Assembly: GCA_026014565.1 (NCBI GenBank)
Contig: JAOZIB010000027.1
Coordinates: forward strand, 1 to 64,000
Reading direction: 5' to 3'
Length of the DNA: 64,000 bases
Source: Candidatus Bathyarchaeum sp.
GTDB taxonomy: Archaea; Thermoproteota; Bathyarchaeia; Bathyarchaeales; Bathyarchaeaceae
A program made the translations under genes and the position numbers. Each line of letters begins with the position of its first letter. Within the stretch, counting starts at the first letter, position 1. The notes below the pieces were generated by a model. The model worked only from the letters and a program-made list of their open reading frames with translations, was not told the origin of the DNA and searched no databases. Positions 46,721 through 48,091 of the stretch are shown here, piece after piece.

Positions 46721-47620
46721 ATGAAAACTGTTGCGTTATTTCTTGGGTTTATACTATTGTTAATAGGAACAGGACTTTGGATTACTTCTGCGGTAACTTC
46801 ACTTCAAGAATACAATCAATATGTAGAACTGATAGCAAGTCAAAATTCAGGACGCCCATTACCCTATTATTCATGGGAACCTGGAAAAACGTTAAACATT
46901 ACATCAATTTTCTTGGCTTTTGCTTGGATTCCACTCATTGATTATGCAATTAGAAAAAAAAGTTACCCGTATTTAAAACAGAAATTAACGTACAAAGGAA
47001 TTAAACGATTTTCACGTTCTAGTTCTCGTTCCCTGTATGAACTACTATATGGAATAATATTTGGCTACTTTTCTAGAATTAACCACAAGGTTGGAGCAAA
47101 AATTAAGTTTTGGGGCATGAAACTTGAAACATTTGAACACGTGCATCTTCTGACAAAAGTTTTCAGGTGGATTGTTTTACCATTGAGTTTAATACATCTT
47201 TTTTTAGGATATTTTCTTTTTGGTCAGAACTTTTTAGACACCATAATCATCGGTGTTGTCCTATTTTTCTATAGTAATTTTGTGCCTGATTTGCCAGCCA
47301 TATTCAGACAAAAAATTTACGGTGACAAGAGAGATACACTTTATGAAAAATTATCTAGCTATAAAACATATGCTCTTCTTTTATTTGCTCCTTTCTTCAT
47401 TTTACTTGTCTTCGGTGGCGCGAAAATAAAATGGAAGACAACTGAAACTTTTCACAATTTCAAGTCTTTAGCCATTTACGGAACATTTCTGTTCATAATC
47501 AGTTTGTTGGTTTTGTTCATTTTTCCAACTTCAATCGGAGGAATAATAGAGACAGTTTGTGTCCCACTTTATGCTATTTTGGGATATCTGACCCATCTAA
47601 AAGTTGACCTTATATTCTAA
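46721..47620 (+). CDS. multi-helix membrane protein, function unknown
   Basis: A 299-residue protein with an N-terminal helix pair (about 3-22 and 58-76), a basic cytoplasmic part (SYPYLKQKLTYKGIKRFSRS) and further helices at about 148-165, 168-186, 222-240, 252-270 and 276-293. FVPDLPAIFRQKIYG lies between helices 4 and 5. It resembles archaeal DUF1286-like or metal-dependent-hydrolase-like membrane proteins only loosely. ATG 46721 has GGAG upstream. No function proposed. Confidence 0.65.
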   Translation: MKTVALFLGFILLLIGTGLWITSAVTSLQEYNQYVELIASQNSGRPLPYYSWEPGKTLNITSIFLAFAWIPLIDYAIRKKSYPYLKQKLTYKGIKRFSRSSSRSLYELLYGIIFGYFSRINHKVGAKIKFWGMKLETFEHVHLLTKVFRWIVLPLSLIHLFLGYFLFGQNFLDTIIIGVVLFFYSNFVPDLPAIFRQKIYGDKRDTLYEKLSSYKTYALLLFAPFFILLVFGGAKIKWKTTETFHNFKSLAIYGTFLFIISLLVLFIFPTSIGGIIETVCVPLYAILGYLTHLKVDLIF

Positions 47621-47786
47621 TCAAAAAATGATGACATCTATGGCATCATTACAAGTTCATGAATTAGAAACAAACCTTAAAAATTATTACAAATTTAAAA
47701 TGGAGCTAAATCAACTTTTGCTCACGAAAAATAACTTAATGCCATCCAAAAAGGGTAAGGTTTTAAACTTGCAGGCCTAACCAATG

Positions 47787-47850
47787 TAGTTGTGATGAGG
47801 GACACCATTCTGAACCTTCGTAATGATGAGATGGAGCGACTCTGAAACGG
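47787..47850 (+). ncRNA. box C/D guide sRNA
   Basis: All four boxes are present in order with canonical archaeal spacing: C box GTGATGA (47792-47798), D' CTGA (47810-47813), C' ATGATGA (47823-47829), D CTGA (47842-47845). The guide spacers are 11 bases (GGGACACCATT) and 12 bases (GATGGAGCGACT), and the internal D'-C' linker is nine bases. GTT before the C box and AAC after the D box can pair as the terminal stem. Such sRNAs with L7Ae, Nop5 and fibrillarin direct 2'-O-methylation of the target nucleotide paired five bases upstream of each D box. The targets were not searched. Confidence 0.85.
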
Positions 47851-48001
47851 CTTACGGACTTCGTAACAGTTAATGTTAAAGTCCAATGTAGACGCAAAAC
47901 TGCAAACTCGTGCAGAAAGCGGATGACCATTAAGCAAAAACTCACGTAACCTTTAAGAAGCACACTACGGGAAAAAGTATCCGAAAAGGAAAGCGATCAA
48001 T

Positions 48002-48091
48002 ATGGCACGACATCACGGCATGACAAAAAAGACCGCCAAAAAGAAACAAAAACGAGTAAAAAAGAAAAGACAAAAAAGACGGAAGAGGTAA
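48002..48091 (+). CDS. 29-residue highly basic peptide
   Basis: ATG 48002 to TAA 48089-48091 encodes MARHHGMTKKTAKKKQKRV followed by KKKRQKRRKR. Two thirds of the residues are lysine or arginine. This composition and length recall ribosomal protein eL41, which is 25 or so residues and nearly all basic, but there is no alignable signature, so identity with eL41 is only a suggestion. AAAGGAAAGCGATCAAT precedes the ATG. It lies about 150 bases after the C/D sRNA and could share its transcript. A T-rich tract follows at 48112-48130. Confidence 0.6.
   Translation: MARHHGMTKKTAKKKQKRVKKKRQKRRKR

Follow-up and report, generated by a model that had tools for sequence, protein, structure and literature searches.

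The locus raises two questions: whether a short intergenic element is a genuine guide RNA gene, and which nucleotides its two guides would address. The element lies in the window, that is, the whole 64,000-nucleotide stretch of Candidatus Bathyarchaeum sp. DNA that was analysed, between a 299-aa ORF ending at 47620 and a 29-codon basic ORF (48002-48091). A preliminary description regarded it as a canonical box C/D guide sRNA. We consider it a box C/D sRNA gene whose D guide directs 2'-O-methylation of G1372 in 16S rRNA (E. coli position 1408), with a probability of about 0.93.

Architecture and class assignment

The boxes and spacers, from C through D, were read directly on the plus strand at 47792-47845 (Table 1). 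The C, D', C' and D boxes had been described as exact, and all four are indeed identical to the consensus (RUGAUGA / CUGA). The two guide spacers were also read directly as 11 and 12 nt, within the approximately 10-12 nt expected for the class. The pairing terminal stem fared less well: GTT at 47789-47791 does pair with AAC at 47846-47848, but this flank pairing is 3 bp long and is not shared by the orthologues. The C/D k-turn boxes are intact.

Table 1. Positions in the window of the sRNA gene, its parts and the upstream element
Feature	Positions	Strand	Sequence	Basis or remark
TATA-like element, with BRE-like element just upstream	47761..47768	+	TTTTAAAC (BRE-like, AAGGGTAAGG)	31 nt before the C box; putative promoter
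Box C/D sRNA gene	47787..47850	+		Approximate extent from the preliminary description; block kept in relatives is ~47792-47845
C box	47792..47798	+	GTGATGA	Sequence reading, strict descriptor; RTGATGA in 20/20 full-length orthologues
D' guide, 11 nt	47799..47809	+	GGGACACCATT	Target scans, orthologue alignment; without convincing target
D' box	47810..47813	+	CTGA	Sequence reading, orthologues
D'-C' loop, 9 nt	47814..47822	+	ACCTTCGTA	Orthologue comparison
C' box	47823..47829	+	ATGATGA	Sequence reading, orthologues
D guide, 12 nt	47830..47841	+	GATGGAGCGACT	11 Watson-Crick bp with own 16S; predicted target G1372
D box	47842..47845	+	CTGA	Sequence reading, orthologues

A strict descriptor (RTGATGA-N9-14-CTGA-N2-12-RTGATGA-N9-14-CTGA) was run over both strands of the window. 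It matched exactly once, at this sRNA, and a looser C/D descriptor returned the same single match. None of 200 order-3 Markov surrogates of the window contained the strict pattern. When the sRNA was scanned against Rfam at gathering thresholds, no family was reached. The best match was RF01139 sR2, an archaeal C/D sRNA, which covered the full element with 22.6 bits and an E-value of 0.0059. Membership in sR2 was rejected, since its gathering score is 42 bits and the guides differ; the D-guide regions before CUCUGA are partly alike.

Pairing of the D guide with 16S rRNA

The preliminary description had proposed a search of rRNA and tRNA for complements of both guides. In this search, 11 of the 12 nucleotides of AGTCGCTCCATC were found in the organism's own 16S rRNA, so that the refuting outcome named there, no such complement for either guide, did not occur. 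The D guide, 3'-TCAGCGAGGTAG-5', forms 11 consecutive Watson-Crick pairs with nt 1369-1379 of the 16S stretch 5'-CGTCGCTCCATC-3' (nt 1368-1379). Its sole unpaired base is the neighbour of box D, which stands opposite a 16S C. By the fifth-nucleotide rule, counting five bases upstream from D or D' gives the guide base whose pairing partner is methylated. For the D guide, this +5 nucleotide is 16S G1372, which corresponds to E. coli position 1408 in an alignment with the E. coli 16S gene and is located in helix 44, at the decoding site (A site). The class calls for at least nine consecutive Watson-Crick pairs to rRNA that include the +5 position, and the D-guide helix contains eleven.

Such a helix is rarely reached by chance: 8 of 5000 composition-shuffled guides gave 11 or more pairs. 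When the D-guide variants were pooled and scanned against the rRNA, the 16S site scored 10.6, as compared with 6.8 for the next-best place. The nine-base core of the guide, TGGAGCGAC, is invariant across the orthologues, and the base beside box D is T, A, G or C depending on the genome. One guide change (AGTGG) is present in the G147 orthologue, next to the free base, and there a G-U pair is retained. A free unpaired base together with a fixed core is what a conserved target would be expected to impose on its guide. On the rRNA side, all 16S sequences of relatives that extend over the site retain the target GCCCGTCGCTCCATCC; one relative is changed just outside the guide.

It should be mentioned that sRNAs of S. 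acidocaldarius and N. equitans have also been predicted to address E. coli position 1408 (PMC4644070), and the target site is therefore not new.

As a separate observation, three genomes carry unusual 16S genes, which either contain an insert of about 180 nt or exist as several fragments and copies (L107 in G019; L108 and L113 in G034; L109, L112 and L115 in G156). These are possibly rRNA introns or mixed assemblies.

Orthologues in Bathyarchaeia

A pattern search for the C'-guide-D block was performed in 163 genomes of the order, in which control patterns gave 0 matches. The block was found in 22 of them, the window genome counted. The full C/D'/C'/D set is present in 21 of these 22 (the window genome and 20 others), which belong to two families of Bathyarchaeia. 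Among public genome contigs, 18 records contained the pattern, and each of them bears Ca. Bathyarchaeota or Ca. Bathyarchaeum in its title. Within the genus, the best matches show 79-91% DNA identity. In more distant genomes, matching is limited to about 53-55 bases, which is the sRNA alone (query 23-76, ~47792-47845). The overlapping minus-strand ORFs look spurious, because the conserved entity is the sRNA. The loop between D' and C' is 9 nt long in every orthologue and follows the pattern [AG]C-NNNN-GT-R, in which a two-pair stem closes a 4-nt loop.

The exception among the 22 genomes is G055, where the guide, followed by CTGA, lies between the C and D' boxes of another C/D RNA. This different RNA (L081 and L093, in G055 and JZ_bin_23) reads GTGATGA-AATGGAGCGACT-CTGA-TG-TGATGATGA and carries the guide in the D' slot. 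In several orthologues the D guide has exactly this sequence, AATGGAGCGACT followed by CTGA; in the different RNA it is positioned between C and D', whereas the D guide of the window sRNA is between C' and D. The occurrence of one guide in two different sRNAs suggests guide transfer or shuffling, or convergence, as far as can be judged from the sequences.

The D' guide

A methylated nucleotide had been expected to be predictable from each guide. This held for the D guide; for the D' guide, the complement AATGGTGTCCC was absent from the stable RNAs checked. In 16S and 23S rRNA of the window genome, no helix of GGGACACCATT beyond chance was found: the best had 7 consecutive Watson-Crick pairs through the +5 position, and shuffled guides often equalled it. 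Significant rRNA targets for both guides are accordingly not indicated, the D' guide being at chance level (7 Watson-Crick bp). No helix of at least 9 bp through +5 was formed by either guide in the tRNAs recovered with ARAGORN, among which some intron-bearing ones may be misread, or by the D' guide in 5S rRNA, SRP RNA and the RNase P region. Thus, by the published criterion of nine consecutive Watson-Crick pairs including +5, the D' guide has no target. Since about one-third of the archaeal C/D sRNAs covered in PMC4644070 showed no significant complementarity to 16S or 23S rRNA, one guide without an assigned target is not unusual. Either the lineage lacks a stable-RNA target for the D' guide, or this target is weak (16S G1040 or G475).

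One tRNA call deserves separate mention. ARAGORN reported a 129-nt tRNA-Pyl(cta) at L052 (G000 C19:18534-18602), to which Rfam gave a weak tRNA match; this locus may rather be an intron-bearing tRNA-Leu.

Among the orthologues, the D' guide varies, with a length of 11 nt, or 13 nt in genus g64. It might be directed to a non-ribosomal RNA, such as an unrecovered tRNA or an mRNA, with conservation of this pairing in some lineages. The guide does not drift freely, GGGACACCATT being identical in genomes of two families, and its exact complement AATGGTGTCCC occurs once in the genome besides the sRNA locus, within the initial part of a topoisomerase-like ORF. However, chance alone would give about one exact match to an 11-mer in the two strands of 1.8 Mb, other genera carry a different D' guide, and the stable RNAs listed above provided no adequate helix. 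An Rfam search around the exact complement and ten of the near matches detected no RNA. A non-ribosomal target seems rather doubtful.

It is also conceivable, and we consider it unlikely, that the sRNA is a double guide with both targets in 16S rRNA, in which the D guide addresses G1372 and the D' guide addresses either G1040, which is E. coli 1082 (GTGTCC), or G475, which is E. coli 515 in helix 18. The D' guide is partly conserved, and its most conserved bases, GGACAC, could pair with the GTGTCC of 16S 1040-1045. When nine distinct 11-nt D' guides were pooled and scanned against all rRNA, 16S 1036-1046 was the best place, with a mean helix score of 6.47, and 16S 471-481 was the second best with 5.98; the respective +5 nucleotides are G1040 and G475. 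Furthermore, C/D sRNAs of three other archaea have been predicted to address E. coli G515 (PMC4644070). Against this, the best pooled score of 6.47 is lower than 6.89, the 95% level of column-permuted guides. The helices are 7-8 bp in the window genome, no orthologue has nine consecutive Watson-Crick pairs at these places, and the 13-nt D' guides of genus g64, whose assemblies yielded no rRNA, put the GGACAC bases out of the +5 register.

The same two places enter a further proposal, that the sRNA would act, besides guiding methylation, as a bridge or folding chaperone in 30S assembly. The D guide would hold helix 44 at the decoding site (E. coli 1408), and the D' guide, via weak 7-bp pairing, would be placed on either helix 18, at E. 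coli 515, or the 1082 region. We regard this role as quite improbable.

That C/D-like boxes have come together in a spacer by chance, without a functional RNA, is favoured by the shortness of the motifs and the lack of an Rfam match at gathering thresholds. This reading is practically negligible, given that the element is kept in different genera and families and varies exactly at positions that do not need to pair, and given the 11-bp rRNA match and the 0/200 surrogates: the comparative data already contradict it.

Putative promoter, protein machinery and neighbouring features

Upstream of the sRNA, a T/A-rich element resembling TTTTAAAC is found at a near-constant distance in the aligned orthologues. 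Judged from sequence, this TATA-like element is consistent with an independent archaeal promoter of the sRNA. According to a 2021 review, merely ~20% of archaeal C/D genes show their own promoter (PMC7994747). As for the proteins, the Nop5 gene is intact (PF01798, E=5.5e-73) and lies directly beside that of fibrillarin, which is cut by contig ends into two pieces (G000 C34 and C13; L142 and L143). The initial view of a canonical box C/D guide sRNA is borne out by the order C-D'-C'-D, the cross-family conservation, the TATA-like element, and the presence of Nop5 and a contig-split fibrillarin in the genome.

Several neighbouring features were noted. Between the sRNA and the basic ORF, a genus-restricted stretch at 47848-47926 (+) can be folded into two hairpins. 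In an alignment of five distinct sequences that was fitted to this structure, changes on both sides were observed in 8 of 17 pairs. The pairing level in the same structure-fitted alignment was reached by 0 of 500 shuffles, and sliding the partners approximately halved the pairing. There was no Rfam match for this stretch, which may act as a leader or represent another small RNA.

The 29-codon ORF on the plus strand at 48002-48091 is rich in Lys and Arg (product, MARHHGMTKKTAKKKQKRVKKKRQKRRKR). Several genomes of the family have it next to the sRNA, with both on one strand within the genus and in divergent orientation in other genera. In size and composition, its product is similar to ribosomal protein eL41; no match was found in Pfam, NCBIfam or PDB sequences. 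The upstream ORF at 46721-47620 (+) encodes a 299-aa membrane-protein-like product with no Pfam or NCBIfam match.

Proposed mechanism and significance

To the observed anatomy, conservation and complementarity, the established C/D mechanism would add transcription, RNP assembly and methylation, as follows. The sRNA would be transcribed, probably from its own TATA-type promoter. L7Ae, Nop5 and fibrillarin would then bind the C/D and C'/D' motifs, and the D guide would anneal where helix 44 of 16S rRNA begins, at nt 1369-1379. Fibrillarin would finally 2'-O-methylate the nucleotide opposite the guide base five positions upstream of box D; this nucleotide is predicted to be G1372.

In its boxes, its two 10-12-nt guides, its size and its +5 targeting of 16S rRNA, the sRNA is similar to the archaeal box C/D sRNAs of the double C/D and C'/D' class (Dennis et al. 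2015, PMC4644070). It differs from them in its origin in Bathyarchaeia, in the conserved TATA-like element and in having one guide without an assigned target. It is a well-made but ordinary addition to a known class, and the mechanism is standard. Within a collection of open papers, a search returned none pairing C/D sRNAs with Bathyarchaeota, or snoRNAs with Bathyarchaeia.

The locus provides a concrete conserved guide for a less studied archaeal class, with a prediction at the level of a single nucleotide, 16S G1372, at the ribosomal decoding site. In addition, an identical guide is present in two different sRNAs, and within the guide pair of the sRNA the D guide seems to be under strict selection, with the D' guide drifting.
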